A DNA stretch of 51,704 nt, from contig JAKQIY010000048.1 in NCBI GenBank assembly GCA_029561455.1, positions 1 through 51,704 of the forward strand, in the 5' to 3' direction. The position numbers and the translations under genes were made by a program. A model generated the notes under the pieces. That model did no database searches. It saw only the letters and a program-made list of their open reading frames with translations, and had not been told where the DNA came from. Source of the stretch: a bacterium. GTDB lineage: Bacteria > Zhuqueibacterota > Zhuqueibacteria > Residuimicrobiales > Krinioviventaceae. Positions 4,293 to 22,754 of the stretch are shown here, one piece after another. The stretch's first letter is position 1, and each line of letters begins with the position of its first letter.

Positions 4293-4633
4293 GTGCGGCG
4301 TTTTGACCGGTGTAACCAGGGGAAACCGGTTGCTTTATTGTTTCTACATCAGAAAAAAAGCCAGATACTATCCAGATATTTATTTAAAAACCAATTTAAG
4401 TAATATAAAAGTTAACAAACAAGTAGAATATCTTGAACTTTTTATCATAAAACACAATAAATACAGTATAAATCGCAGAAAAAATAAAATTAACTATTGC
4501 AATATTATCAAAAATTATTATATATTTAAAAATTAAGGTAATAACTTTTATCATACTCATTCGTCTTATAGTTAATATTACTTTATATAAAAATAGTAAA
4601 CACAAAAAGTTAATAACAAAATCGTACACTTCT

Positions 4634-4721: not shown

Positions 4722-4781
4722 AATTGGAGATTCCTGACCTCTCTCGTGCCTTATCAGGAGATTAAGAACGAGGAGAAAAGT
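4722..4781. repeat. Imperfect repeat around GGAGATTCCTGA / TCAGGAGATT
   Basis: Two partly similar GAGATT-containing segments and CTCTCGT / ACGAGGAG arms form an imperfect inverted arrangement. It lies 60-120 bases from the palindrome at 4634 and probably belongs to the same intergenic repeat block. Confidence 0.35.
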
Positions 4782-5100
4782 TAATCACAAAATCGTAATT
4801 GGTTTAATATAAGAAATATGGCATAAAAATTGATATATTATAAGTGGAATATTTTGCTTTCCTTGCCTCACATGACATGATTTTTAAGGTTATTTTAATG
4901 GACAGAGATTTTCAACCTAGCGGTTAGAGCAAACAGGTTGTTAATAAACGAAAGCGCTTTTCTTTTAACGAATTACCGACCACCAGATAAAAAAATATTT
5001 TTATACGCGGTAGTTCCTGTATACCGGTAACAACCAGAAACCTGCGCTGGTTCATAACAGGTCATTTTAGCAAAAAACATAACTGTAAAGGATCACGACC

Positions 5101-7074
5101 ATGATACGAAAATTCCCATTTCTATCCTTTTCAAGTGTTTTGCTGTTATTCCTCCAGATCAATCTAGTCTTCGCGCAGAAAAAAGCTCTTGAAGAGTTGC
5201 TGAACATGAGCCTGGAAGAGCTATCCAATATCCAGGTGATAACTGCCTCCAAAATCCCTCAAAATATAGAAACCGTGCCCGCCACAGTCCGGGTGATAAC
5301 GACAGAGCAGATCGCCAATAACGGCTACCTGACCCTTGAAGAAGCGCTTGCTGATCTGCCCGGCATGCAATTCCGCAACATAAACGGCTTTAACAGTTAT
5401 GTTTTTATGCGCGGAGTACCCAGCCAAAACAACCTCATTCTGGTGCTGGTTGACGGCATACAGATCAATGAACTGAATTCCGGCGGATTTTACGGCGGCG
5501 GACAATACAATCTCCAAAACGTTGACCGGATTGAAATTGTCTATGGCCCGGCATCGGCGCTATATGGCACCAATGCCGTTTCCGGTATCGTCAATATTAT
5601 TACTAAATCTCCCCAAACCCATACAGGCCTGGATCTGTATGCACTATACGGCACTTTTAATACGGTCAACGCCGGTTTTAATTATGGGCAATGGTCGAAT
5701 GAGCGAGACCTGGGCTGGCGGATTTCCGGTATGTTCAAAACCACGCAAAAAGCCAATCTCAAAGGCGCTGCCGGTGATAATAACTGGTCCGATAACATGG
5801 AGAATTTTGAGGACGATTATTCCATTGACGCCAGGTTAACCTGGCGCCGCTTTGACTGGGGATTAAATTATCAAAACAAGCAGACTTCGACAGCCACATA
5901 TAACAAAGCCATTGGTACTCATTACCTCGATACGGATACATACTGGAACATTCGTTTTATCAATTCCTGGCTCAGGCACAATATCGAGATCAATAAAAAG
6001 ATCAGCATTGTTACCCAGGCTTATTATCGCAATTCTACGGTGATGGATAATTCCGTTCTGATTGTTACAGACACATCGCAAGTTGGGTATTACCGGCCCA
6101 ATCAGCTTGCAGGCATTGAAAACCTCGTAAATTATAATCCGACCCCAAAATCTCAGTTTATTGCAGGGATCGTATATGAATATGAAGAACTGGCGCATGG
6201 TTATTCGAACACATCCAGTCCCGCACCCAATATTCGCCCGCTCAGGCCGCCCAAACCGGATATGGATGAAAATACTTTATTCAGTATTTATGGACAATAC
6301 CGCTACAAGATCTATAATTCATTAAAACTGTATGCCGGCGCCCGCTTTGATAACAGCAGTATTTATGACCAGGTAGTAACGCCCCGGTTAGGGTTGGTAT
6401 TTAATAAAAATCATTACACCGGCAAATTACTCTACACCGAAGCATTCCGGGCGCCCAAAGCCTGGGACTATACCGACGGTGTAGGCAATCCAAACCTCAA
6501 ACCGGAAGAGATCAGTTCCCTGGAATTTTATTCCGCATATAATTTCAAGCCAACAATGCGGGTAGATATTTCTGTGTTTAGGAATTTTATTTCCAATAAA
6601 CTGGTCAAAGAGAATACACAGAATTCCTGGCGCTGGATCAATTATGGCGAATTGCACACCAACGGCTTGGAACTGACCCTGGAATATGAAAAACAGCCGC
6701 TGCAAACCTGGTGCAATTACTCATTAAACCGCTCACTTGATGAAAACGATGCATTCATTCCCGAAATCAGCAAACATCAGTTTAATGCAGGATTGCATTA
6801 CCGTATCACACAAAAATTACGTTTTACAGTAAACGGCCATTATTACGGAGAAAGAAAGAATCCCCGTGTTATTCAGTCCACCGGCAGCGATATGATTAAA
6901 GCAGCGCTGGTTATGAATGCCTCCCTCGCCTGGCTGCTGAATGACCAACTGGAAATCCGTTTGTTCGGTAAAAATATTCTGGATGCTGAATACTATCACA
7001 CTTCAAACTTGCCTCCGGACCGCTATCGACAGCCGCAGCGCAGTTTAACAGTTCAGGCCAATGTTCATTATTAG
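5101..7074 (+). CDS. TonB-dependent outer-membrane receptor
   Basis: This 657-residue protein has a signal peptide (1 to about 25, ending VFAQ). A plug domain spans roughly 45-165, with the signatures DLPGMQFRNI, FMRGVP and VDGIQINE, and VERIEIVYGP-type residues followed by ALYGTNAVSGIVNIIT. The rest is a 22-strand-type barrel with alternating aromatic residues, ending in a C-terminal aromatic (VHY). Residues about 30-45 carry the LLNMSLEELSNIQVITASK phrase, often found at the start of receptors that sit beside sensor kinases. There is no carboxypeptidase-like or STN domain. It is the first gene of a plus-strand operon; yfiR-like, kinase and receiver genes follow within short gaps. The ligand is unknown. 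A role as an outer-membrane sensor rather than a pure importer is my inference from the neighbours. Confidence 0.9.
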   Translation: MIRKFPFLSFSSVLLLFLQINLVFAQKKALEELLNMSLEELSNIQVITASKIPQNIETVPATVRVITTEQIANNGYLTLEEALADLPGMQFRNINGFNSYVFMRGVPSQNNLILVLVDGIQINELNSGGFYGGGQYNLQNVDRIEIVYGPASALYGTNAVSGIVNIITKSPQTHTGLDLYALYGTFNTVNAGFNYGQWSNERDLGWRISGMFKTTQKANLKGAAGDNNWSDNMENFEDDYSIDARLTWRRFDWGLNYQNKQTSTATYNKAIGTHYLDTDTYWNIRFINSWLRHNIEINKKISIVTQAYYRNSTVMDNSVLIVTDTSQVGYYRPNQLAGIENLVNYNPTPKSQFIAGIVYEYEELAHGYSNTSSPAPNIRPLRPPKPDMDENTLFSIYGQYRYKIYNSLKLYAGARFDNSSIYDQVVTPRLGLVFNKNHYTGKLLYTEAFRAPKAWDYTDGVGNPNLKPEEISSLEFYSAYNFKPTMRVDISVFRNFISNKLVKENTQNSWRWINYGELHTNGLELTLEYEKQPLQTWCNYSLNRSLDENDAFIPEISKHQFNAGLHYRITQKLRFTVNGHYYGERKNPRVIQSTGSDMIKAALVMNASLAWLLNDQLEIRLFGKNILDAEYYHTSNLPPDRYRQPQRSLTVQANVHY

Positions 7075-7110
7075 AAAAGCAATACTGACCAGAAATTACG
7101 GTAGCATTAA

Positions 7111-7641
7111 ATGAAAATGAAATTATTAACAATTGTATTCATCATTACGGGTTCCCTGGCCATCACTAGTGCAGCGCCTATGCAAAACCAGGATTATACC
7201 AACAATATAAAAGCGGCATTTATATATAATTTTACCAAATATCTGAGTTGGGCCGAACAGGATTACCCGGTCTTTACCATAGGCGTCATCGGTAACAGCG
7301 CTATCATCCCCCCGTTACAGGAAATCGCTCAGCAACGCCGGGTTGAACAAAAAGAAATTATAATTAAACAATATCAGGATGCAGCGCATATTGACCAATG
7401 TGATATACTATTCATTCCCGAATCAGGCAAAAATCAATTGACGGAAATAACTGCCAGGCTGCAAGGTAAAAACACTTTACTCATTAGTGAAATTAATGGC
7501 GCACTGGCTGATGGAGTGATGATCAATTTTTTAAACATTGAAGAGACCATCAAGTTTGAAATTAATTTAAAGGCGATGAATGAGATGAATTTTCATCCCA
7601 GTTCACAGCTTTTAAAAGTAGCCGTTCGGGTTATTGAATAG
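7111..7641 (+). CDS. YfiR/HmsC-like periplasmic protein (DUF4154)
   Basis: This 176-residue protein has a signal peptide (1-21). A YfiR-family domain follows, with the typical opening NIKAAFIYNFTKYLSW (residues about 31-46) and matches to FTIGVIGNS, CDILFIPES and LLISEINGA, ending IKFEINLKAM. In Pseudomonas, YfiR is a periplasmic repressor that binds the sensor part of the diguanylate cyclase YfiN. Here the next gene is a histidine kinase rather than a cyclase. It lies 36 bases after the receptor and 11 bases before the kinase, whose ribosome-binding site AGGAGG overlaps this intergenic gap. It probably relays the state of the receptor or the envelope to the kinase sensor domain. Confidence 0.88.
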   Translation: MKMKLLTIVFIITGSLAITSAAPMQNQDYTNNIKAAFIYNFTKYLSWAEQDYPVFTIGVIGNSAIIPPLQEIAQQRRVEQKEIIIKQYQDAAHIDQCDILFIPESGKNQLTEITARLQGKNTLLISEINGALADGVMINFLNIEETIKFEINLKAMNEMNFHPSSQLLKVAVRVIE

Positions 7642-7652
7642 GAGGACGACCA

Positions 7653-9560
7653 ATGAAACATGGAAAATATTTTTCCATAAAAAACAAATTGATCCTCATT
7701 CAATTGTTGACCACCTTTTCCGTACTGTTATTTTATAGTCTATTCCATATATTACGTGATTCCCGTTTTTATATGGATTCAGCAAAACGGGAACTCTATT
7801 CCATGACGGAATTGCTTGGCTCTAACTGTATCTCCGCCCTGCATTTTATCGACCGGCAAACGGCAGGTAACATTCTTGCTACGCTAGCGGTTCAGGAACA
7901 AGTTTTCAATGCCTGGATCTTTGATGCTGAAAACAACCTGTTTGCCGAATATCATAAACCGGGTCATGAAAATCAAAGTCCGGTAGCGTTATTATCAGAT
8001 TCAATAATCGTGCAAAATGAAGATATGACTATAATAAAGCCGGTTCAGGATGATGGCGAGGTAATCGGCTATATATCCATTCGTTACAGCTTGCAGAGCT
8101 ATAAACAGATCATTGCGAAAAGTAAGACCAATTCCCTGGTCATTTTTTTCATCGGTATGGGCGCCGCTTTGTTGCTGGCGGTGGTTACGCAAAGAACAAT
8201 TTCCAATCCCATATTAAAATTACTGGCGAATATGAAAAAAATTTCCGAGACCGGAGATTATTCAATTCGCCCGACAAAGGAGCGGGATGATGAAATCGGT
8301 TCGCTTGCGGATGGTGTGAGCGAAATGCTCTCGCAGATACAACTCCGCGAGGAGGAAAGAAACCGGTTCGACCGCGCCCTGCAGGAAAGCGAAGAAAAAT
8401 ATCGCAACGTTGTGGAACGGGCTAATGACGGGATCATCATTTTACAGGATGGCGTTTTCAAGTATGTTAATCCCAGCCTGTTAGAAATGGCGGAATGTTC
8501 GGAACAGGATTTACTCGGCATTCCCTTTTCACGGTTTGTGCCGCCGGAAGAATTATCAAAAATCGTAGCTAATTTTAACAAGCGCATGGCGGGAGAACCG
8601 GTGCCAACCATGTATGAAACACGCTTTTTGACCAGCAAGGGTAAAACCGTCGATGCCGAAGTAAATGCCGGTTATATCACATTTGAAGGTAAACCTGCGG
8701 ACCTGGTGATGATACGCAATATTACGGAAAGAAAGATCATCGAACAGGAACTTGAAAAGCACAAGGAACGGCTCGAAGATATGGTAGCCGAACGGACGGC
8801 GCAATTAGAGGCGGCCAACGAGCGCTTGCTGGAACTGGATCGCATGAAATCCATGTTCCTGGCTTCCATGAGCCACGAGTTACGCACGCCGCTGAATTCT
8901 ATTATTGGCTTTACCGGCCTGCTGCTTATGGAGTTGGCCGGCGGTCTAAATCCAGAACAAAAAAAACAACTGGAAATGGTGAAAAGCAGTTCTTCGCATT
9001 TGCTGGAGTTGATCAATGATATTCTGGATATTTCTAAAATCGAATCGGGCAAGGTGGTCCTGGCTATTGAAAGTTTTGATTTGCTGGATGTCGTCCATGA
9101 GGCGCTGACTGCCATACAACCTTTGGCTGCAAATAAAGGGTTAAAAGTATTAAGTTCAGGAGCACATAAAATCAGGATAACCAGCGACCGGCGCCGGGTC
9201 AAACAAATATTAATGAATCTGGCCGGAAATTCAGTCAAATTCACCGAACAGGGCTATATCGAAATGACGGTTAATACCGAAAATCAGCAAACAGTAACAA
9301 TAAATGTTAAAGATACCGGCATTGGCATTACAGAGAAGGATTTGGAAAGATTATTCCATCCCTTCCAGCAAATAGATATGACATCAACCAAAAAATATGA
9401 AGGCACCGGTTTGGGGTTATATCTTACTAAAAAACTGGCCATACTATTACAGGGCGATATATCTGTAATCAGCCAATATGGCAAAGGCAGCACATTCTCG
9501 ATTTCATTGCCGGTAGAGTGGAAAGAGGAGTTGAGTAATGAAAAAAATTTTAATTATTGA
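7653..9560 (+). CDS. Membrane histidine kinase: CHASE8-like sensor, HAMP, PAS, HisKA, HATPase
   Basis: This 635-residue inner-membrane sensor kinase has transmembrane segments at about 13-32 and 160-180. The periplasmic part between them (about 35-155) reads like the CHASE8 sensor of YfiN, with LGSNCISALHFIDRQTAGNILATL and AWIFDAENNLFAEY. A HAMP linker (about 180-235), a PAS domain (about 250-360) and a coiled coil (about 360-395) follow. The HisKA domain carries the phospho-acceptor His408 in SHELRTPLN. The HATPase domain (about 510-625) shows NSVKFT, DTGIGI and GTGLGL boxes. The last 23 bases overlap the following receiver gene, indicating tight coupling. With the YfiR-like protein directly upstream, a YfiR-gated kinase is the natural hypothesis. 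No output domain is attached. Confidence 0.92.
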   Translation: MKHGKYFSIKNKLILIQLLTTFSVLLFYSLFHILRDSRFYMDSAKRELYSMTELLGSNCISALHFIDRQTAGNILATLAVQEQVFNAWIFDAENNLFAEYHKPGHENQSPVALLSDSIIVQNEDMTIIKPVQDDGEVIGYISIRYSLQSYKQIIAKSKTNSLVIFFIGMGAALLLAVVTQRTISNPILKLLANMKKISETGDYSIRPTKERDDEIGSLADGVSEMLSQIQLREEERNRFDRALQESEEKYRNVVERANDGIIILQDGVFKYVNPSLLEMAECSEQDLLGIPFSRFVPPEELSKIVANFNKRMAGEPVPTMYETRFLTSKGKTVDAEVNAGYITFEGKPADLVMIRNITERKIIEQELEKHKERLEDMVAERTAQLEAANERLLELDRMKSMFLASMSHELRTPLNSIIGFTGLLLMELAGGLNPEQKKQLEMVKSSSSHLLELINDILDISKIESGKVVLAIESFDLLDVVHEALTAIQPLAANKGLKVLSSGAHKIRITSDRRRVKQILMNLAGNSVKFTEQGYIEMTVNTENQQTVTINVKDTGIGITEKDLERLFHPFQQIDMTSTKKYEGTGLGLYLTKKLAILLQGDISVISQYGKGSTFSISLPVEWKEELSNEKNFNY

Positions 9561-9897
9561 AGACAATGAAAAAAATTTGTACCTGCTGCGCTTTCTTATC
9601 GAAAAACTCGGCCACCAGGTCATAGAAGCCCGCGACGGACAGGCCGGCGTTGATACTGCCGTTGCCGAAAAACCGGATATCATTTTAATGGATATACAGC
9701 TGCCGGTTATGGACGGCTATGAAACCACCCGGCAAATTCGTAAAATGGCTGAATTTAAAGATACTCCAATTATCGCCATCACCTCTTATGCCATGGTTGG
9801 CGACCGGGAAAAAACACTCGCCGCCGGCTGTACAGACTATATTGAAAAACCGATCCAACCGGAAAGTTTTATTAAGCACATTCAAAAATATTTTTAA
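9538..9897 (+). CDS. Stand-alone receiver protein (DivK/CheY-like)
   Basis: This 119-residue protein is a single REC domain. Acidic pair Glu8-Asp9, phospho-acceptor Asp52 in LMDIQLP, switch Thr in AITS and Lys in EKPIQ are all present. No DNA-binding or enzymatic output domain follows. Its ATG lies inside the end of the upstream kinase gene, so the two are translated together and the kinase is the likely phosphodonor. Similar lone receivers next to HisKA kinases act as phospho-shuttles or allosteric regulators. Confidence 0.92.
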   Translation: MKKILIIEDNEKNLYLLRFLIEKLGHQVIEARDGQAGVDTAVAEKPDIILMDIQLPVMDGYETTRQIRKMAEFKDTPIIAITSYAMVGDREKTLAAGCTDYIEKPIQPESFIKHIQKYF

Positions 9898-9907
9898 AGG
9901 AACCGGT

Positions 9908-12781
9908 ATGAAAATTCTCATAGTCGATGATATGAAAGAAAACCTTTTGCTGCTCAATACGCTGTTAACCGGTTTTAGGCATACGGTTGTCCAGGCAATG
10001 AACGGCCAGGAGGCATTACAAAAGCTGAAAAACGACTCTTTTGATATGATCGTATCCGATATACTCATGCCGGTGATGGACGGTTACGAGCTTTGTCAAA
10101 AATGTAAAAGCGACCCTGACTTACACCAAATTCTTTTTATATTTTATACCGCGACCTATACGGATAAGGAAGATGAAAAGTATGCAATGCAACTGGGCGC
10201 CGACCGGTTTTTGATCAAGCCAATGGATCCCGGAGATTTTATGACGGCAATACGCAGTGTTGCGCAAAAAGCCGAACAGCATAAAATCCCTCACCGGGAA
10301 CCGGCAATTTCGGACATTGAGACAATAAAAAAACACCGCGACCGGCTTTTGAATAAACTCGGTAAAAAAGTTGATGAACTGAATATTGAAATTAGTGAAC
10401 GAAAGAAAGCGGAAGAAAAATATTGGCAATTAATTGAATCGACGCCTCATGCGATCATGATCCACAGTGATGGTAAAATTATTTATTCTAACCAGGCCGG
10501 GTTCCGCTTACTGGAAGTTGATAATGGTAAAAAACTTGTCGGCAGAAATTTGCTTGATTTCATACATTCTGACTATCATGAGCAATTTAAGGAAAAGACT
10601 GAATTATTGCTCACCGGAGCGACTCTGTCAAAATCTTGTCATGGACAATTCTTAACTATAAATGGAACGAGTATTGATGTTGAAGTAACCTGTTTACCAA
10701 CCATTTATAATGGCAAGACAGCTATTCAATTGATCATTTGGGATATTACTGAACAAAAAAAAGCTGAAAATATTCTGCGTAATAATGAAGCGCAACAGGC
10801 AATTGCCATGAAAATTGCCAAACTGGGGTATTGGGAATACGATGCAGTAAACAAAATATTCACCTTTAATGATGCCTTTTATTCGATCTATCATACTACA
10901 GCGGAAAAAGAGGGCGGTTTTACCATGCCTGCTCTACAATATTTTAAAAAATTTATTCACCCTGATGACCGGCGCCTGGTCGAAAATACCATGAACGAGT
11001 TTTTGCAAACAGGCAATACAGAAAAAAGTTATCAGTTTGAACACCGGATCATCTATTCAACCGGAGAGACCGGAACTATCACCGTGCATTTCAATATCAT
11101 CAAAGACCAGCAAGGCCGCATCGTCAAACTGCTTGGCGCCAACCAGGATATAAGCGAACGTAAAAAGATTGAAAGCTCCTTACAGGAAAGCGAGGAACGC
11201 TATCGTATGATCGCCGATCACGTCGGCGATGTGGTTTGGCAACTGGATCCGACTTTACATTTTGTTTATGTCAGTCCGGCTGTGCAGCATGTATTGGGGT
11301 ATACAATAGAAGAGACTCTGGGAGAACTGGTAACCGACTATCTGAATGAAGATGAAATGCAAAAAATGAAACAAGTGATCCAGAAGCGGATGACTTCTCC
11401 CCTCACTCCGCCCACTCCAACCCAATATAAAATGAAACATAAAGATGGACATTGGGTGGATGTTGAAGTTGTTTCTTCTCCTGTGTTTACCAAAAATGGT
11501 CAATTTTCCGGTTTTGCCGGGATTACCAGGGATATTACCGAACGCAAACGGGGGGAAAAGGCGCTTGAAGCGGCCAACCAACGCCTGAGAATTTTGCACC
11601 GCATCACTGAAACAGTGCACAAGAGCCTGGAATTAAATGTTATTTTTAGTTCCATAACCCAAGCAGTTGTTACCGAAATGGGCTTTTCAACAGCAATTGT
11701 AGTCACTCTTGATGCAGATGGAGAAATTTATCGTGTGCGGTCACTAATTTCCTCTAAAAAGTATATGGCGCAAATAGATAAATTAATGGGGCACCCGTTT
11801 AAAAATCTGTCATTCCCTGCCAATCGCATTATCAAAGCAGCCCAAAATACCACTGCAACCGGGGAAATGATCATCAAAAGCCGTCTCTATCACATAGCCT
11901 GTCCGCCGTTTAAAAAAATTGTTTGTGAACAGATGCAAAAACTCAGCGACAGTAAAAGCTACATCCTCGCGCCCCTGGTGCTTTCCGGAAAAACCTTGGG
12001 GGCATTGGTCGTTTCCAGCCCCAAAACAATAAATGAATTACAAGATGCCGACCTGGAAATGCTTGGTACGTTTGCCTCTACAGCTGTTCAGGCAATTGCC
12101 AATGCCGGGTTACTCGCGGAAACCAATAAAGCCAAAGAGCAAATCCAGGACAATTTAGAGGAAAAAGAGGTGCTGTTACGTGAATTATATCACCGCACCA
12201 AAAACAACATGCAGGTTATTGCTTCCATGCTGCGTATTCATGCCAGCCGCTTGAAGGATGAAAATCTCAAACGTATTTGCTATGATGTGGAAAATAAAAT
12301 ACTATCTATGGCAATTGTGCATCAAAAATTATACGAATCACAAAACTTGTCGCACCTGAATTTGAAAGAGTATTTTAACAATTTGCTGGAACTGCTGGCA
12401 AACAGTTTTGCCGCCGACCACATAAAATTCACCCTTGAAGGCGATGATGTTAAAGTATTGATCGATACCGCCATCCCCTGCGGCTTGATCCTCAATGAGT
12501 TGATCACCAATTCAATCAAGCATGCCTTTCCGGACAATCGTGAGGGAGAAATAAAAGTCAGATTATACCTGACCCGTAAAAATGAATTGGTCATACAAGT
12601 TGCCGATAACGGCGCCGGTTTGCCGCCGGGCTTTAATTTTAAAAAGGATATGCGATTGGGGTTGGAATCTGTAATTGTACTGGTGGAACACCAGTTACAA
12701 GGCAAGATCAATTTTAAAAACCATAACGGCTTGTATTGCAAAATTGTATTGAAAGAAGAATTGTATCAACCGAGAATATAA
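9908..12781 (+). CDS. Soluble hybrid sensor kinase: REC, three PAS, GAF, HisKA_2
   Basis: This 957-residue protein is predicted cytoplasmic, with no membrane segment. An N-terminal receiver (residues 1-120) has Asp7-Asp8 and phospho-acceptor Asp51. Three PAS domains lie at about 180-295, 300-425 and 430-555, each ending in a DITE/DISERK PAC phrase. A GAF-like domain (about 570-735) follows. The HisKA_2 dimerisation segment has a YHRTKNNMQ box with His762, and the HATPase (about 850-955) carries NELITNSIKHAF and DNGAGLP. The start at 9908 is chosen because AAAGGAACC precedes it and the receiver begins there; a longer in-frame upstream extension would run through the previous gene. HisKA_2 kinases often respond to light, redox or stress and pair with atypical receivers. 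The N-terminal REC suggests it is itself an acceptor in a phosphorelay. Confidence 0.9.
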   Translation: MKILIVDDMKENLLLLNTLLTGFRHTVVQAMNGQEALQKLKNDSFDMIVSDILMPVMDGYELCQKCKSDPDLHQILFIFYTATYTDKEDEKYAMQLGADRFLIKPMDPGDFMTAIRSVAQKAEQHKIPHREPAISDIETIKKHRDRLLNKLGKKVDELNIEISERKKAEEKYWQLIESTPHAIMIHSDGKIIYSNQAGFRLLEVDNGKKLVGRNLLDFIHSDYHEQFKEKTELLLTGATLSKSCHGQFLTINGTSIDVEVTCLPTIYNGKTAIQLIIWDITEQKKAENILRNNEAQQAIAMKIAKLGYWEYDAVNKIFTFNDAFYSIYHTTAEKEGGFTMPALQYFKKFIHPDDRRLVENTMNEFLQTGNTEKSYQFEHRIIYSTGETGTITVHFNIIKDQQGRIVKLLGANQDISERKKIESSLQESEERYRMIADHVGDVVWQLDPTLHFVYVSPAVQHVLGYTIEETLGELVTDYLNEDEMQKMKQVIQKRMTSPLTPPTPTQYKMKHKDGHWVDVEVVSSPVFTKNGQFSGFAGITRDITERKRGEKALEAANQRLRILHRITETVHKSLELNVIFSSITQAVVTEMGFSTAIVVTLDADGEIYRVRSLISSKKYMAQIDKLMGHPFKNLSFPANRIIKAAQNTTATGEMIIKSRLYHIACPPFKKIVCEQMQKLSDSKSYILAPLVLSGKTLGALVVSSPKTINELQDADLEMLGTFASTAVQAIANAGLLAETNKAKEQIQDNLEEKEVLLRELYHRTKNNMQVIASMLRIHASRLKDENLKRICYDVENKILSMAIVHQKLYESQNLSHLNLKEYFNNLLELLANSFAADHIKFTLEGDDVKVLIDTAIPCGLILNELITNSIKHAFPDNREGEIKVRLYLTRKNELVIQVADNGAGLPPGFNFKKDMRLGLESVIVLVEHQLQGKINFKNHNGLYCKIVLKEELYQPRI

Positions 12782-12782
12782 T

Positions 12783-13166
12783 ATGAACAACAAAATCAAA
12801 GTATTGATAGCAGAAGATGAAGCAATAACCGCGATGAGTTTGAAAATTGATCTGGAATGTCACGGTATTGCGGCCTTGCCGCCGGTTGCGACCGGTAAGG
12901 ATGCCGTACATCTGGCCTGTAAAGAAAAACCCGATCTTATTTTAATGGATATTCGCCTTAATGAAGATATGGACGGTATTGAAGCCGCTGCAGAAATATT
13001 AAAGCATCACAACATTCCGATTATTTTTATGACCGGCTTTACCACCGATACTATAAAAAAACGCGCTATAAAATTGCACCCACTCGATTTCCTCGAAAAA
13101 CCCTTGGATATGAACAGAGTAAAGCAGCTCATAGACAACATATCTTTAGAAGAGAATACGCTGTAA
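12783..13166 (+). CDS. Stand-alone receiver protein
   Basis: This 127-residue REC domain has Glu11-Asp12, phospho-acceptor Asp56 in LMDIRLNEDMDG, a Thr in MTGF and Lys in LEKPL. The MDIRLxxxMDGIEAA form is typical of receivers associated with HisKA_2 kinases. The ATG follows the stop of the preceding kinase by one base, so the kinase and this receiver probably form a cognate pair. It has no output domain. It ends the operon; the next gene begins nearly 280 bases further on. Confidence 0.92.
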   Translation: MNNKIKVLIAEDEAITAMSLKIDLECHGIAALPPVATGKDAVHLACKEKPDLILMDIRLNEDMDGIEAAAEILKHHNIPIIFMTGFTTDTIKKRAIKLHPLDFLEKPLDMNRVKQLIDNISLEENTL

Positions 13167-13443
13167 ATAAATATTACACCTGTTTTCCGGGGGAAAAGTA
13201 TTTCTGTATAGCAACACTTACCGACACTATTTTTATATTGACTGTGAATTGAATCAGCACATACTTTGCTAAAAAATTAATTTTAATCTTGAATTTTTCA
13301 GCAATTATTTGTTTATTAGAATCAGTTAAATAATATTTTGATTTGAACAAATTTCATTAACCCTGATTCTGATGTTGCTGAATCACCAGGCACCCGCTGT
13401 AAAATCTGATTACTATTGTAACACCAATCATCACGGAGGAAAA

Positions 13444-15717
13444 ATGTCAAGAGTAAAATTTTTAATTGTTTGTTTGCTTTTTATTGTTAATTACAGTTAC
13501 AGCCAATCCCCATCCTTTAGGACCTTTATGAATCCGGTCATACCGGGCGATCACCCGGATTGTACGCTATCAAAATTTGGCGACGATTTTTACACAACCG
13601 GGTCGTCATTCAATCCCACCCCGGTCATCTATCATTCAACCGACCTGGTGCACTGGGAAGCCATAGCGCAGCCGGTTTCGCCGTCATGGAGTTTGTATGG
13701 CGATGCCCCGGCCGGCGGCTGCTGGGGAGGTCACCTGGTTTACTATAATAATAAATACTGGCATTTTTTTGGGAAAAATGCCATCATGTACTATGTTACC
13801 GCCAATGATCCGGCCGGGCCATGGAGCCATCCCCCGGTGGCCTTGACTTGTCCGCCGGAGCTTCCCGGTTTGGGTATGGATAATTCAATTTTCATCGATG
13901 ATGATAATTCCTGGTATCTGCTGGTGAAAAACGGCCAGTCTGTAAACTGGATCGTACAACTGGGAGATGACGGTCAACCGTACGGAGCACTCTACAACCT
14001 GAGTTGGCTCAATCCGGCGCCGGGCTATCCCTACAGTTGGGCGGAAGGCCCGGTAATGTGGAAATACAAGGGTTACTATTATTACTGTTTTGCCATAAAT
14101 CTGGCCGGGGGACAAAAGGTAATGCGCAGCGCCACCCTGACCGAAGATCAGTCCTCATGGGAAATGCTGGGTGACTTTTTTAATGAATCCGATCCGAAAA
14201 AATCATCCGCAATTTTCCAGGGACCAAATCACAGTTCCTCTGCTATAATGCTGGAAGATAGCACCTGGTGGGTTATTTATCATGCCAACGCCAAGGCCGG
14301 TTCCAATGAATGGCATGGCATTGGCCGCCAGGGATTGATCAGTCAGGTGCGGTATAATGAAGCTGGCAAACCCACCGCCGATTATTGTACCAACGAGCCG
14401 CACACTGCCCCGGCTTTACCCAGCAGCGGCATCCCCTGGATGGTGCCGAAATCGGATTTCTTTACCGCTGAGAAACTGAATCCCGAATGGTCTTTTCTTG
14501 GTTACACCCCGGATGGCACCTATTCTCTTACCGCTCGGCCCGGCTGGTTCAGGCTATCGCCCAAAGGCAAGGAAAATACCATTATTAAAAATGATGCCGA
14601 ACATAATTATTCGCTCATAACCCGGGTGGATTTCAATGCTGCCGCTACAGCAGACCAGGCCGGTTTGTGGATATTTAACGGCCCGCAAACCCTGTTCGTC
14701 AAACTCTACAGCACGGTTAACACCGCCGGCAATAAAGTGATAGCGTTCAGTTTTGACGCTACCTATTATGAAACGCCGAACACGGCCGGTAATATTGTCT
14801 GGCTCAGGCTGATCCGCATCAATCATGTTGTATACGGGTATTTCAGCGCCGATGGTGTCACCTGGTCTCCGGTAGGCGAAAGCATTAATGTTGCATCAAT
14901 GGATAAAGAACATCCTAATTTTAATGACTTTACGGGTAACCGCCAGGGTATCTATGTCAAAGGTAGCCCCGCTGATTTCGATCTGTATATCTACCGGGAC
15001 GCCTACTCGCCCATCCTCGCCGAATGTCCCGCCAATCAGTATGGGGTTACAGCATCAACGAAAAAAGACGGCATCAGGATCCTGGATAATATCCACAATA
15101 CCGACTGGGCCTTGTATGCCGGCATGGAATTTGGCAATAACGAATATGTAAAAACCCCGGCCATGCTTGAAGTGATTGCTTCGAGCGATGCAAACGGCGG
15201 CCTGATAGAAGTATGGCTCGACTCTCTAGATACCGGTACCAAGGTCGGTGAATGCGTCATTACCGGCACCGGCAGTATGAAAACATTCAAAACATTTACA
15301 GGAACAGTCGCTCCCATAACCGGGCGGCATGATGTGTATTTAAAATTCACCGGCACAGGAGAGGACAAGCTATTCCAGCTAAAATGGCTGCGCTTTTTAA
15401 CCGAAAGCGAAGTTGCCACCTCTTTAGGGGAAAATCAACCCCCGAAACGACCGATTGAAAACTCTTTGCAGCAGAACTATCCCAATCCCTTTAATCCGAC
15501 AACCGAGATTAATTTCTCGATAGCCGAACCATCCTTCGTTTCCCTCAAGGTTTTTAATTTATTAGGGAAAGAAATAAATGAACTGGCCGGTAAAAGCTAT
15601 ACCGCAGGACGGCATTCGGTAACGTTCGACGCCTCAAACCTTGCCAGTGGTATCTATTTTTATAAATTAAACACCGGACATTTTTTGCAAACTAGAAAGA
15701 TGTTCCTGGTAAGATAA
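13444..15717 (+). CDS. Secreted GH43 glycosidase with beta-xylosidase-type C domain, CBM6-like domain and sorting tail
   Basis: The start is taken at 13444 because GGAGG precedes it and a signal peptide (1 to about 20, NYSYSQ) follows; an upstream in-frame ATG at 13372 lacks both. The product has 757 residues. The five-bladed propeller of GH43 spans about 25-330, with the general base Asp39 in DHPD, the pKa-modulating Asp146 in GMDNS and the general acid Glu201 in WAEGP. A concanavalin-like beta-xylosidase C-terminal domain (about 345-525) follows, then a CBM6-like module (about 535-655). The last 80 residues are a Por/type IX secretion sorting domain that begins with a QQNYPNPFNPTTEI motif. 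Family members cleave xylan or arabinan side chains; the exact bond is not readable here. The tail implies secretion or surface attachment through a type IX-like route. Confidence 0.92.
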   Translation: MSRVKFLIVCLLFIVNYSYSQSPSFRTFMNPVIPGDHPDCTLSKFGDDFYTTGSSFNPTPVIYHSTDLVHWEAIAQPVSPSWSLYGDAPAGGCWGGHLVYYNNKYWHFFGKNAIMYYVTANDPAGPWSHPPVALTCPPELPGLGMDNSIFIDDDNSWYLLVKNGQSVNWIVQLGDDGQPYGALYNLSWLNPAPGYPYSWAEGPVMWKYKGYYYYCFAINLAGGQKVMRSATLTEDQSSWEMLGDFFNESDPKKSSAIFQGPNHSSSAIMLEDSTWWVIYHANAKAGSNEWHGIGRQGLISQVRYNEAGKPTADYCTNEPHTAPALPSSGIPWMVPKSDFFTAEKLNPEWSFLGYTPDGTYSLTARPGWFRLSPKGKENTIIKNDAEHNYSLITRVDFNAAATADQAGLWIFNGPQTLFVKLYSTVNTAGNKVIAFSFDATYYETPNTAGNIVWLRLIRINHVVYGYFSADGVTWSPVGESINVASMDKEHPNFNDFTGNRQGIYVKGSPADFDLYIYRDAYSPILAECPANQYGVTASTKKDGIRILDNIHNTDWALYAGMEFGNNEYVKTPAMLEVIASSDANGGLIEVWLDSLDTGTKVGECVITGTGSMKTFKTFTGTVAPITGRHDVYLKFTGTGEDKLFQLKWLRFLTESEVATSLGENQPPKRPIENSLQQNYPNPFNPTTEINFSIAEPSFVSLKVFNLLGKEINELAGKSYTAGRHSVTFDASNLASGIYFYKLNTGHFLQTRKMFLVR

Positions 15718-19864: not shown

Positions 19865-20383
19865 CTATTTCCTGTAAGCTTTAACGGTAGCCGGAATACC
19901 CACGGCTATGGCGTTTTCCGGTATATCGTGGGTGACCACGGCGTTGGCGCCAATGACCGCGCCGTTACCGATGGTTACACCGGGCAGTACTATGGCCTGC
20001 GCGCCAATGTACACATCAGAGCCGATGATGACATCTTTTTCCGTGGCTTCCTGTTCGATATAGGGTATACCTTTTTTAAAGCCATGATTGGAGGCGGTGA
20101 TAAAGGCGCCGGGACCAATGCCGGTATAATCACCGATGCGGATCACCGATTTTTCACCGGCCATTAAATAGGCATGGCGCTGAATGATAACGTTCTCACC
20201 CAGAAAAATATTTTCCGGAAAGGCAAACACAGCATTCGGACGAATGCCTGTGCCCTTGCCCAGCTTGCCAAAATTAATAATACCCCAGACATTATCATTC
20301 AGAAACATGACGATGAGATGCTTTAACTGCAACCACAGGTGTTTGGAGGTGAATATACGGATATATTTAAAACGTTTTGCCAT
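19865..20383 (-). CDS. Left-handed beta-helix (hexapeptide) acyltransferase
   Basis: Read from ATG 20383, with GGAG six bases upstream, the product has 172 residues; an earlier ATG at 20428 lacks a ribosome-binding site. Hexapeptide repeats run through most of the protein, for example IFLGENVIIQRHAYL, VIRIGDYTGIGPGAFI and DVYIGAQAIVLPGVTIGNGAVIGANAVV. The probable catalytic His lies in ASNHGF. This is the form of WbbJ/maltose-acetyltransferase-like O-acetyltransferases that use acetyl-CoA on sugars. It starts the minus-strand group that continues with the NodB-like protein, 11 bases away. Confidence 0.9.
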   Translation of the reverse strand: MAKRFKYIRIFTSKHLWLQLKHLIVMFLNDNVWGIINFGKLGKGTGIRPNAVFAFPENIFLGENVIIQRHAYLMAGEKSVIRIGDYTGIGPGAFITASNHGFKKGIPYIEQEATEKDVIIGSDVYIGAQAIVLPGVTIGNGAVIGANAVVTHDIPENAIAVGIPATVKAYRK

Positions 20384-20582
20384 AAGGTTCTCCAATTTGT
20401 CGGTTGCCAGACTGTCCGCCAGGTTCATTAAAACATAGCACTACACTTCCTGACTCGCAATTGACCCAGTTACCTGGCAGGGGTGAGATCAATTCATTAA
20501 TATATTGAATATAGTTCTCTTTTTGTAGATCATCAACAAAATTATTACGATTCAGATAGAATAATTTATAAAATTCAATAAA
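20384..20582. other. Junction between the acyltransferase and the AT-rich island
   Basis: About 200 bases in which base composition changes: the part next to the acyltransferase (to about 20490) is balanced, the rest is strongly AT. I see no gene, tRNA fragment or clear direct repeat marking the edge. It must contain the acyltransferase promoter. Confidence 0.5.
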
Positions 20583-21059
20583 TCAATCAAAAAGTGGTGT
20601 TAATCTTAAATCAAAAGGAGCAGCTGGTGGAATATTATCAGAATTTGGAAGAGGAGCTGGGGGTTGTATTGGTTGGGGTAACTCTAAATTATCAATAAAC
20701 TCTTGAGTAATTGTAAAACCTGTATCTTCATTGCTAAAATCCGTAATATTTTCAAAATTACTATTAATAATATGTAGTGGTAAAAATAATAAAAATGTAA
20801 TTGAACTTATTGAAATAAATGGTATTAATAAGTTATTCAAAAATAATTGTAATATATTAAATAAAAAACCTGCATTAATTATCATATCACTATTTGTATT
20901 ATCATATTTATAATAATTACTCCTTATTTTGCTAATTTTTTTCAATTCTCTCTTAACTAATTTTTTTTCTTTAGTATAAACCTTGTTTAAAATAATCGCT
21001 GCCCAAAAATTATTAGCATTTTGTTGACAATAATAATATAAATAATTATTAGTTTCCAT
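20583..21059 (-). CDS. Unrecognised membrane protein with proline-rich tail, third gene of the AT-rich cassette
   Basis: This 158-residue protein matches no family I know. Residues 1-60 are polar and lysine/tyrosine-rich (likely cytoplasmic). Residues about 62-99 are a long hydrophobic stretch, enough for a membrane hairpin or one long segment. The rest is acidic and then proline-rich (LPQPIQPPAPLP, 127-138), ending PFDLRLTPLFD. Its ATG overlaps the stop of the TolR/ExbD-like gene by one base (TAATG), so it is translated with it. A role as an accessory, anchor or effector of the putative ion-channel pair is an inference from position only. Base composition matches the rest of the island. The short length and tail could also suggest truncation, but no frameshift is visible. 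Confidence 0.7.
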   Translation of the reverse strand: METNNYLYYYCQQNANNFWAAIILNKVYTKEKKLVKRELKKISKIRSNYYKYDNTNSDMIINAGFLFNILQLFLNNLLIPFISISSITFLLFLPLHIINSNFENITDFSNEDTGFTITQEFIDNLELPQPIQPPAPLPNSDNIPPAAPFDLRLTPLFD

Positions 21060-21577
21060 TATAATGTTTCGTTAAAATTAATGATTGATGTTAAATTATT
21101 ATAAGCTAACCATTGTTCAAAAAGTAAGAAAAGTTCTGAATTAATTTGTTTATTTTTATTATCAACTATTACTTGAATATTTTCTGCATTTTTAAACTCA
21201 TCTTTATTTTCATTCAATGCTAGTAATAAATTAGGAAATCGATTTGTCTCATATAATATACTAAGTGGTTCTCCGCTTTTAATTAAATATATTACATCAC
21301 TGTTATAAGACTTCGAAAACATAACTATTAACATATCATTAGGTAATTCTGATGTAAATCCCGAACCATTGGCAACATCTCTAAACTCGAATAAACTTGA
21401 AAAAGAACTTTGTGAATTATTAAAATTTTGATTTACTCCAAATACTATTGATGCAATAATAAAAACGTATGATAATAATGTAAATAAGTCAACTAATGTC
21501 TCAAAATTATCCTCACTTGTGTAATCTTCTTTTAATTCATTTTTAGAAAAAAAATGATTATTATTTTTATATTTCAC
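21059..21577 (-). CDS. TolR/ExbD-like protein, partner of a proton-channel complex
   Basis: This 172-residue protein has a short cytoplasmic N-terminus, then one membrane segment at about 28-48. It begins ETLVDLFTLLSYVFII with Asp30 at its cytoplasmic edge, the position of the proton-binding Asp of ExbD, TolR and MotB. The extracytoplasmic part (about 80-172) has the strand-helix-strand look of the ExbD/TolR domain: IQVIVDNKNKQINSEL, a helix LFLLFEQWLAYNN and a final strand TSIINF. No OmpA-type peptidoglycan-binding domain is present. The start is GTG at 21577, supported by AGGAG ten bases upstream, and overlaps the TGA of the channel gene. Similarity is by pattern only, so the family call is probable rather than certain. 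Confidence 0.72.
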   Translation of the reverse strand: MKYKNNNHFFSKNELKEDYTSEDNFETLVDLFTLLSYVFIIASIVFGVNQNFNNSQSSFSSLFEFRDVANGSGFTSELPNDMLIVMFSKSYNSDVIYLIKSGEPLSILYETNRFPNLLLALNENKDEFKNAENIQVIVDNKNKQINSELFLLFEQWLAYNNLTSIINFNETL

Positions 21578-22572
21578 TTATTCTTTTCTCCTGTATTGAA
21601 ATTAAAAATAATAATATCTATTTTTGAAAATATTGAATTGTTCAATTTTTGCAATATTATGGATACAATTCGTATTATTAAGCCAATAAAAGTAGAAACC
21701 ATAGCAATTTGAATTGACTCAAAAAAAATGTTTAAATTTTGGACTTCCCTAATTATTGGATTTAAACCTACGATTAGTGATGAAATTGTTAGTAAGAAAC
21801 CCATTGCTGGTCCAAGAATTTGTAAAAACTTATATCTAATTTCATTTTCCATGTAAAGTTCAGTTAATTTTATTTTTACTAATTCAATATTATTATATTT
21901 TAAATATATTTTGTTTATGTATTTTTCTAGTGAACTTCTTTTCCAATTATACCACATTTTAATTATTAATTCATTAATTAATATAAAAGTATATAATGAA
22001 AAAAAAGTTAAAATAAAATTTCCAATTGGTTCATTAAATTTTAGTAAAACATTTGAAATAGTTTTTGTAATATAATGTCTATTTGAAAACTCTTTATTTT
22101 TTGAAAAGAAATTGTTTTGGTAAAAACTTTTTAAGTTTTGTTTTTCGTTATCAATATATATTTTTGTTATTTTTAAATTATTGAAATCATTAAAATTTAG
22201 AGTTATTCTTTGTTTGGCATAATCATTTTTTAATATTTCCGCAGATAATAAATTTTCAATAATACAAGAATTTAATTTTTGCTCAACTTTTTTTGAATTA
22301 ATATCTATACCAATTCCTTTTGTTGTTAATACGGGATACATTGAATAACTTTTAATAAAAACATTATTGTTAAAAAATATTTCACACGTATTGAATGTTT
22401 TTTTGATCTCAATCTGAAAAGAATTCGAACGTCCCTTTATTAAAATCGAAGGATTAAAATTGGGTAAATAAATAATAATTATTGATGTAATAAAAATTGA
22501 AATCATTAAGTAAAGTGTATTTTTTAAACTTATCCTTTTTAAAAGGAAATTGATTATAGTTTTTAATGACAT
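21574..22572 (-). CDS. TolQ/ExbB/MotA-like channel protein with an N-terminal extracytoplasmic domain
   Basis: The 332-residue protein has four hydrophobic segments at about 18-36, 183-207, 250-270 and 283-307. The last two carry the family signature: a GPAMGFLLTISSLIVGL helix and a FFESIQIAMVSTFIGLIIR helix. Thr262 and Thr294 sit where ExbB and TolQ have the polar residues lining the ion path. Between segments 2 and 3 lies a short charged cytoplasmic loop. Between segments 1 and 2 lies a domain of about 145 residues, probably extracytoplasmic, that I do not recognise and that is absent from classical TolQ/ExbB. AAAGGG precedes the ATG. It is first in a three-gene overlapping unit in very AT-rich DNA. 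A proton or sodium-driven motor or energy-transfer complex is the likely function; what it drives is unknown. Confidence 0.75.
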   Translation of the reverse strand: MSLKTIINFLLKRISLKNTLYLMISIFITSIIIIYLPNFNPSILIKGRSNSFQIEIKKTFNTCEIFFNNNVFIKSYSMYPVLTTKGIGIDINSKKVEQKLNSCIIENLLSAEILKNDYAKQRITLNFNDFNNLKITKIYIDNEKQNLKSFYQNNFFSKNKEFSNRHYITKTISNVLLKFNEPIGNFILTFFSLYTFILINELIIKMWYNWKRSSLEKYINKIYLKYNNIELVKIKLTELYMENEIRYKFLQILGPAMGFLLTISSLIVGLNPIIREVQNLNIFFESIQIAMVSTFIGLIIRIVSIILQKLNNSIFSKIDIIIFNFNTGEKNK

Positions 22573-22754
22573 CTTTTAACCCTTTAAAAATATTTGACAT
22601 TTATTTTAAAATTTAAAATAAAAAAACAAAATATTGCCCAATAAACAGTTAATATCATGCTTTTATTTACATCTTTTCCCCAAATTATTTAGTTTCGTTT
22701 TTAAATAATACAAAGAATAAAAATAAAAATCAACAAATTATTAAAATAAAATAT
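22573..22754. other. AT-rich upstream region of the cassette
   Basis: These 180 bases between the radical SAM gene and the three-gene cassette are almost entirely A and T and must hold the cassette promoter. No operator-like inverted repeat or terminator stem stands out. The AT bias stops within a few bases of the radical SAM stop codon. Confidence 0.5.

Follow-up and report, generated by a model that had tools for sequence, protein, structure and literature searches.

Analysis of a 51,704-nucleotide (nt) stretch of DNA from a bacterium of the phylum Zhuqueibacterota (contig JAKQIY010000048.1 of assembly GCA_029561455.1; the whole stretch is called the window here) revealed a cluster of six genes on the plus strand at 5101-13166. 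These genes encode a TonB-dependent receptor, a YfiR-type periplasmic protein, a membrane histidine kinase (K1), a lone receiver (REC1), a second histidine kinase (K2) with an N-terminal receiver (REC2), and a second lone receiver (REC3) (Table 1). The TonB receptor and YfiR genes are 36 nt apart, the YfiR and K1 genes 11 nt, the REC1 and K2 genes 10 nt, and the K2 and REC3 genes 1 nt, and the K1 and REC1 genes overlap by 23 nt. This spacing is operon-like. A first-pass annotation of the DNA had placed an operon at 9538-13166, the second half of the cluster. REC1, K2, and REC3 do lie in that interval, but K1, its "first kinase," lies outside except for the 23-nt overlap. The annotation had also overlooked the TonB/YfiR/CHASE8 front end, the different families of the two lone receivers, and the mosaic build described below. 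Its core observation was confirmed as real and as more than chance: the cluster contains two kinases of different classes, both above the Pfam cut-offs, one receiver (REC2) fused to the second kinase, and two single-domain receivers (REC1 and REC3), all three matching PF00072.

Table 1. Features of the six-gene cluster in the window
Feature	Position	Strand	Basis
TonB-dependent receptor, gene 1 of cluster	5101-7074	+	PF00593, E value 2.5e-33; PF07715, E value 4.4e-23
YfiR/DUF4154 periplasmic protein	7111-7641	+	PF13689, E value 9.2e-36; signal-like N terminus by eye
K1, membrane kinase CHASE8-HAMP-PAS-HisKA-HATPase	7653-9560	+	PF17152, E value 4.8e-17; PF00512, E value 1.6e-21; PF02518, E value 4.6e-27
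CHASE8 periplasmic domain of K1 (residues 43-143), presumed YfiR contact	7779-8081	+	Pfam
HisKA phospho-acceptor domain of K1	8844-9050	+	Pfam
REC1, lone receiver, DivK-like, HisKA class	9538-9897	+	119 residues; PF00072, E value 8.7e-28
K2, REC2-PAS-PAS(-PAS)-GAF-HisKA_2-HATPase	9908-12781	+	957 residues, start ATG at 9908
REC2, N-terminal receiver of K2, HisKA class, predicted K1 target	9914-10255	+	PF00072 at residues 3-116
HisKA_2 phospho-acceptor domain of K2	12182-12406	+	PF07568 at residues 759-833
REC3, lone receiver, HisKA_2 class (PhyR/PdtaR-like), FMTGF motif	12783-13166	+	127 residues; PF00072, E value 3.6e-21

The phospho-acceptor domain of K1 scored 76.6 bits with PF00512 (cut-off, 26.9 bits), and that of K2 scored 73.4 bits with PF07568 (cut-off, 22.3 bits). 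The SHELR H-box and the DTGIG and GTGLG motifs of K1 are intact, and its N-box was recognized by eye. K2 has an intact H-box (HRTKNN), N-box (ELITNS), and DNGAG and RLGL motifs, and its HATPase_c domain was matched with an E value of 3.1e-9. In HisKA_2 kinases, the first Asn of the N-box is replaced by Glu (PMC12148442), as is the case in ELITNS. The remaining domains of K2 are the PAS repeats, a GAF domain (residues 576-730), and the HATPase domain (residues 860-945); an open reading frame (ORF) of 1020 residues listed from 9719 is merely the longest frame of this gene. By eye, the Asp and Lys sites of the receivers look intact. A Pfam scan detected no output domain in the six genes, in agreement with the earlier statement that no effector or DNA-binding domain is encoded nearby. 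An output regulator beyond the last receiver was not found either: the next gene, 205 nt past REC3, encodes a GH43-CBM6 protein with a type IX secretion system (T9SS) tail, which gives no more than a hint of the FCB group.

To sort the receivers by class, one profile was built from 33 distinct receivers encoded directly 3' of HisKA_2 kinases and another from 61 distinct receivers of HisKA kinases, with the window excluded. In 10-fold cross-validation, 92 of 94 receivers were sorted correctly (32/33 of the HisKA_2 class and 60/61 of the HisKA class). REC1 (70.8 bits with the HisKA_2 profile and 120.8 bits with the HisKA profile) and REC2 (40.5 and 90.5 bits) were assigned to the HisKA class, and REC3 (129.2 and 62.0 bits) was assigned to the HisKA_2 class. 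Alternative training sets, composed of 17 lone receivers after HisKA_2 kinases and 101 HisKA-class receivers, 92 of them fused, gave the same classes (REC1, 64.1 and 113.0 bits; REC2, 32.9 and 92.5 bits; REC3, 139.1 and 69.1 bits). Part of the contrast between the fused HisKA-class and the lone HisKA_2-class receivers of the alternative sets could reflect fusion state, but the result for N-terminal receivers, which belong to neither group, argues against fusion state explaining the whole of it. The pairing among these domains on which the first-pass annotation had hinged is predicted by the margins, REC2 being of the class of K1 by 50 to 60 bits and REC3 of the class of K2 by 67 to 70 bits. 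An early home-made HisKA_2 profile that included the ATPase domain labeled HisKA kinases as HisKA_2 when iterated and was replaced by profiles cut from Pfam-placed matches. Eighteen of the 20 HisKA_2 matches of the source genome were used as seeds; the other two were L020, which was omitted, and L018, which did not pass the motif filter.

REC1 and REC3 differ in family, REC1 being DivK-like and REC3 PhyR/PdtaR-like. The best solved relative of REC1 is DivK of Caulobacter, likewise a lone receiver (6e-27; 1.3e-38 with a profile of eight relatives), a likeness of sequence similarity only. With the NCBIfam DVU0259_DivK model, REC1 scored 60.5 bits (cut-off, 160 bits), and models of hybrid-kinase receivers scored higher. 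Its partner in the receiver tree is a lone receiver behind a HisKA kinase (support, 100/99).

A search of 99 genomes with REC2 and the residues that follow it (230 residues in total) gave eight matches outside the window of at least 111 bits, from six genomes; the next match scored 87 bits. In seven of these eight closest relatives, a REC1-type lone receiver, 46 to 58% identical to REC1, is encoded directly before the REC2 protein. In a ninth match (L293, genome G075), REC1 is missing and a HisKA hybrid kinase precedes the REC2-HisKA_2 frame. At L265 (contig C189 of G058, a genome 56% complete), frames for the PAS and ATPase parts of a kinase are followed by REC1, a REC2-PAS3-HisKA_2 kinase, a REC3-class receiver, another HisKA_2-class receiver, and a REC2-PAS protein. 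In L290, L291, L266, and one copy of L292, a HisKA kinase with a C-terminal receiver replaces K2, and L200 has the order TonB-YfiR-K1-REC-REC-PAS-HisKA_2 with no REC3. The inputs of the first kinases vary, comprising PAS and GAF domains in L264, a receiver, PAS, and GAF domains in L266, and CHASE8 with YfiR in the window. Judged by gene order and receiver similarity, the kinase-REC1-REC2-kinase core is conserved elsewhere. The first kinase of L290 (4470-8315; contig C11 of G036) carries a Reg_prop/Y_Y_Y sensor, which shows that the cassette input is exchanged.

To compare N-terminal receivers with the kinases encoded before them, a set of 44 kinases bearing such a receiver was scored. A non-hybrid kinase is encoded upstream (in steps of at most 350 nt) of 24 of these, a hybrid kinase upstream of 3, and no kinase upstream of 17. 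The N-terminal receiver matched the class of the upstream kinase in 21/24 cases (Fisher P = 6e-4), namely, in 11/13 cases with an upstream HisKA_2 kinase (that of L086 by a mere 1.1 bits) and in 10/11 with an upstream HisKA kinase. The exceptions are L041, L211 (by 0.6 bit), and L203. The same 24 receivers did not track the catalytic class of their own kinase (P = 0.37). Without three loci found through the REC3 search, the table is 8/2/1/10 and P is 0.002. Kinase classes were set by our own profiles. For 19 kinases with an N-terminal receiver and 5 first kinases, examined with Pfam either because these profiles recognized the ATPase domain alone or as a control, Pfam likewise indicated HisKA, two of the 19 being slightly under its cut-off. 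In loci selected by DUF4154 with a CHASE8 kinase upstream, 7/7 HisKA_2 and 7/7 HisKA cases fit, the window being among the latter, and the HisKA cases are spread over several places in the tree. These results suggest a rule, held in 21 of the 24 cases, that a second kinase carries a receiver of the same class as the preceding kinase. The class of REC2 and the conserved kinase-REC1-REC2-kinase order thus support the earlier suggestion that the first kinase may control the second through its N-terminal receiver.

The pairing of K2 with REC3 was analyzed by a mirror-tree comparison of HisKA_2 cores and adjoining lone receivers in 18 pairs. The distances correlated with r = 0.69, a value that includes background relatedness and one frame-broken receiver (L100); none of 20,000 permutations gave a value as high. 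Mean identity to the other receivers of the 18 pairs was 46% for REC3, 31% for REC1, and 25% for REC2. In a tree of 103 receivers, which has few columns for its number of rows and samples 40 of the 101 HisKA-class rows, REC3 falls in a 14-row clade otherwise made up of HisKA_2-adjacent lone receivers (support, 94/91) and in an inner 8-row clade (100/95). With a profile of REC3 and ten relatives, the best solved matches were 3cg0, the receiver of a PAS diguanylate cyclase, then 1s8n, which we take to be PdtaR, and PhyR entries. The entries 2n9u and 2lpm, presumably SdrG and Sma0114, ranked 13th and 33rd, the latter behind several YycF, CheY, and Spo0F entries. The best NCBIfam model for REC3 is that of the PhyR family (80.3 bits; cut-off, 240 bits). 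Locus L087 of the source genome (contig C43, 14000-33000) holds two tandem pairs of a HisKA_2 kinase and a lone receiver, which are the nearest in that genome to the catalytic core of K2 and to REC3.

These data favor a two-stage kinase cascade in which the phosphotransfer class would switch en route, from K1 to REC1 and REC2 and from K2 to REC3, a reading that we hold to be somewhat better than an even bet. The TonB-dependent outer-membrane receptor and the YfiR-type protein would determine which state the CHASE8 domain of K1 adopts, as their families suggest. K1 would phosphorylate REC1 and REC2, consistent with receiver class and conserved gene order. REC1 may be a sink that competes with REC2 or a DivK-like regulator acting by contact. 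Phosphorylated REC2 would alter the activity of the fused K2, either up or down; the effect is inhibitory in CheS3 of Rhodospirillum centenum, the kinase of the nearest tested analogue found. K2 would then phosphorylate REC3, as class, mirror tree, and gene order indicate. Because it has no output domain, REC3 must act by protein contact or by handing on phosphate, in the latter case perhaps to other HisKA_2-type partners, as MrrA of Caulobacter does.

The analogue in R. centenum is the CheA3-CheS3-CheY3 system, as described in PMC3868531. There, phosphate moves from CheA3 to the N-terminal receiver of the HWE kinase CheS3, the lone receiver CheY3 is phosphorylated only by CheS3, and the final output of CheY3 is given as unknown to the authors. 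The likeness, which here concerns architecture and class only, is the order of a kinase, a REC-PAS kinase, and a lone receiver. That system starts from a CheA-type hybrid that takes its input from a chemoreceptor, whereas K1, a HisKA kinase of the membrane, has CHASE8 and YfiR. The window operon has one lone receiver more, REC1, and its second kinase is of the HisKA_2 class, whereas CheS3 is an HWE kinase.

Several points weigh against the proposed cascade. Receiver class would indicate compatibility and not a specific contact of K1 with REC2, and classes can leak, since MrrA, by the account in PMC5964349, also takes phosphate from a HisKA kinase. Every transfer step in the scheme is drawn from sequence. 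The class pattern was noticed in part of the loci on which it was tested, and of eight cases fetched later, six fit (L203 and L211 do not). Among the three cases with a hybrid kinase upstream, which were kept separate from the 24, L113 is an exception and the other two fit. All seven HisKA_2-class cases of the CHASE8 subset belong to a single clade and may represent one event. Both kinases of L265 are split over frames, and a HisKA domain was not seen in the first. A REC2-type HisKA_2 kinase stands without a REC3-type neighbor in L200 and in one copy of L292. More generally, 27 of the 75 HisKA_2 frames away from locus edges have no receiver directly after them and 48 have one (duplicates counted); 6 further frames ran to the locus edge.

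Two independent pairs, K1-REC1 and K2-REC3, might instead merely adjoin, with REC2 serving K2 alone or no longer exchanging phosphate with K1. The two tandem pairs on contig C43 indicate that a module of the K2-REC3 type is self-sufficient, and L200, which lacks REC3, fits this explanation as well. We nevertheless regard it as unlikely: the HisKA class of REC2 is the wrong one for self-service by a HisKA_2 core, a REC1-type receiver precedes the REC2-type kinase in seven of its eight closest relatives, and the genes from YfiR through REC3 overlap or lie 1 to 11 nt apart.

Comparison of the parts of both kinases with their nearest relatives bears on how the cascade may have been assembled. For the N-terminal part of K1, some 230 residues long, the nearest sequences are other YfiR-linked CHASE8 kinases (best, 42% identity), and for its catalytic core they are relay-cassette kinases (55% in G043, 50% in G038, and 49% in G042). 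Relay kinases are closer to the K1 core than 80 other kinases (one-sided P = 0.0017; n = 4, with some duplicates among the 80), although the fourth full-length relay kinase, the hybrid of L290, ranks 26th; those of L265 and L292 are too broken for a fair ranking. Residues 1-210 of K2 are nearest to relay REC2 proteins (41%). From residue 541 on, K2 is nearest to HisKA_2 kinases with a lone receiver of their own, with 53% identity over 422 residues in G077; the kinases of the two tandem pairs on contig C43 share 61% and 60% with it over some 220 residues. Since the halves have different nearest relatives, joints lie inside both K1 and K2. By these similarities, three modules make up the mosaic operon: a YfiR/CHASE8 input module, a relay module (K1 core-REC1-REC2-PAS), and a HisKA_2-REC3 module.

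The input module was compared with known families. The YfiR protein passes the DUF4154 cut-off (123.5 versus 24.9 bits), scores 121.2 bits with the YfiR-like TOL_0243 model (NF053591; cut-off, 125 bits), and fails the curated cut-off of YfiR proper (NF053586; 40.4 versus 85 bits). The N-terminal half of K1 scored 161.5 bits with the model of the YfiR-associated kinase (NF053592; cut-off, 194 bits). For the TonB receptor, the top NCBIfam match is the vitamin B12 receptor (150.5 bits; cut-off, 599.7 bits) and the third is TOL_0244 (NF053590; 129.6 bits; cut-off, 645 bits), two other models scoring higher than the latter. The three models of this TOL_0243/TOL_0244 set describe, by name, the same three-gene front end; the window proteins are below all three cut-offs, and the model names are silent on REC1, K2, and REC3. 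Searched as a single sequence, the YfiR protein matched no solved structure; solved YfiR structures were reached at about 4e-8 with a profile of 14 family members. The CHASE8 half of K1 matched HAMP structures only, and weakly.

A CHASE8 protein is present in 46 of 57 mapped DUF4154 loci (38/44 plus 8/13), and some of the 11 without it are cut off where the contig stops. DUF4154 was detected in 30/82 genomes of the phylum and in 40/194 genomes of a broader set, to which most of those 82 belong. The periplasmic domain of YfiN is a CHASE8 domain. In the YfiBNR system of Pseudomonas aeruginosa, as presented in PMC2837407 and PMC4887326, a YfiR-family protein is likewise encoded beside a membrane protein whose periplasmic domain it is thought to hold. 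The output half of that membrane protein is a diguanylate cyclase, whereas it is a histidine kinase here, and YfiB is an OmpA/Pal-type lipoprotein, whereas the neighbors of YfiR in the window are a TonB receptor and a kinase. The window YfiR holds a single cysteine, which makes the disulfides described for P. aeruginosa YfiR, Cys71-Cys110 and Cys145-Cys152 (PMC4887326), impossible. In the titles and abstract openings retrieved by searches for such combinations, no system that combines YfiR/DUF4154 or CHASE8 with a histidine kinase or TonB receptor was evident.

Further units of this kind were observed. Locus L086 of the source genome (contig C61, 296500-316400) comprises a TonB-YfiR-CHASE8-HisKA_2 unit with four further HisKA_2 kinases around it, two of which have an N-terminal receiver. 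Locus L090 (contig C26, 380000-399000) contains a second YfiR-CHASE8-HisKA unit, followed by a REC-PAS-PAS-PAS-HisKA-REC hybrid kinase. In L205 and L206 (G047 and G059), one open frame carries two YfiR domains and adjoins a CHASE8 protein.

The source genome (98.8% complete) contains 20 HisKA_2 matches and 79 matches to the REC3 profile, the best 30 of which were assigned to a class. Fifteen of these 30 fall into the HisKA_2 class, one of them by a margin of just 1.1 bits; they comprise seven lone receivers and eight receivers on kinase N termini (three HisKA hybrids and five HisKA_2 kinases). None of the 15 proteins has an output domain above the Pfam cut-off; a subthreshold match to the DNA-binding Topo-V HhH family (21.3 bits; cut-off, 27 bits) lies in the PAS region of the protein at L086 1691-4981. 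ANTAR domains were absent from the source genome and six others in a search that found a REC-ANTAR protein in G158 as a positive control. The window and 10 further loci with HisKA_2-REC3 pairs shared no recurring non-kinase gene that is an output candidate: one family, grouped around the GH43 protein of the window, is shared by several loci, probably through the T9SS tail of that protein, and a few others occur in two loci each. The first-pass annotation had reasoned that the output lies elsewhere or is protein-protein control. The lack of an output domain in the six genes agrees with this, and no output regulator was found among the 15 receivers from the best 30 of 79 matches. A lone HisKA_2-class receiver at L247 5572-5949 (contig C67), with no kinase mapped in the surrounding 11 kb, is a candidate orphan carrier.

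The same count of 0/15 would also suit an explanation in which REC1 and REC3 are mere phosphate sinks that time K1 and K2, the true output being a HisKA-class response regulator encoded elsewhere. Sinks of this type are known, namely, the receiver of CheA3 itself (PMC3868531) and LovR (PMC5964349). REC3-type receivers adjoin HisKA_2 cores in 18 distinct pairs and diverge together with them, beyond the needs of a generic sink, and we consider this explanation improbable.

In Caulobacter, the lone receiver MrrA is described as collecting phosphate from HWE/HisKA_2 kinases and one HisKA kinase and passing it to PhyK and LovK (PMC5964349), and REC3 could be a carrier of this type. REC3 resembles the FATGUY receivers (MrrA, SdrG, and Sma0114), PhyR, and PdtaR as a lone receiver tied to a HisKA_2 kinase by class and gene order. 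The FATGUY motif has been argued to mark intermediary receivers (PMC9981736). The REC3 motif, PIIFMTGF, is near but not equal to its strict form as given in PMC5964349, PFXFATG(G/Y). A looser pattern, [FY]x[TS]G[FY], occurs in REC3, in 10/17 HisKA_2-adjacent lone receivers, and in 4/101 HisKA-class receivers. The PdtaS-PdtaR system differs in its ANTAR output, a domain that REC3 itself lacks. A multistep phosphorelay from K1 through REC1 and the K2 histidine, as phosphotransferase, to REC3, with REC2 tuning K2, would resemble MrrA-PhyK-PhyR, in which the HisKA_2 protein PhyK is a phosphotransferase fed by a lone receiver (PMC5964349), but REC1, as a HisKA-class receiver, fits the K2 histidine poorly and the ATP-binding motifs of K2 look intact (though those of PhyK are conserved too), so that this route has little probability in our view.

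The two-stage cascade may be part of a wider arrangement. Under a tentative interpretation, which we see as possible but clearly short of probable, HisKA_2 signaling in this lineage would be largely an internal kinase-to-kinase network, in which HisKA_2-class receivers have no output domains and serve as lone carriers or sit on kinase N termini. Kinases with an N-terminal receiver of the other class would convert between two partly insulated phosphotransfer classes; examples are K2, from HisKA to HisKA_2, and, in the source genome, the proteins of contigs C78, C46, and C26 with a HisKA_2-class receiver in the order REC-PAS-HisKA-REC. The YfiR/TonB sensor would have been grafted on through the joint inside K1.

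The flanks of the cluster were also examined. The upstream neighbor is a CBM48-esterase gene. A 22-nt direct repeat (95% identity) lies at 4605-4626 and 4776-4797, within a stretch of about 850 nt 5' of the TonB receptor gene. No excess of promoter matches was detected. No terminator-like site was found in 13140-13480. The window contains no Rfam family at gathering thresholds, and a search of plasmid records in "near" mode gave no match. A scan of genome contigs with K2 gave two weak matches, both to its receiver part. A low-GC stretch lies at 20000-22600 of the window (GC fraction of 0.278 in 20001-22000 versus 0.39 to 0.50 in the other 2-kb steps listed); it contains three adjoining minus-strand ORFs (20583-21059, 21059-21577, and 21574-22572) that match no Pfam family at 0.001.

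Lone receivers without output domains are common and mostly unexplained. The domains of the window operon and the logic of a kinase cascade are known; their combination with a YfiR/TonB front end is new. From receiver class and the order of the genes, a concrete wiring can be proposed for five phosphotransfer domains. If the class rule holds more widely, kinase-to-kinase cascades could be predictable from sequence. The YfiR/CHASE8 sensor, best known from cyclic di-GMP control, would here feed a histidine-kinase cascade beside a TonB receptor.

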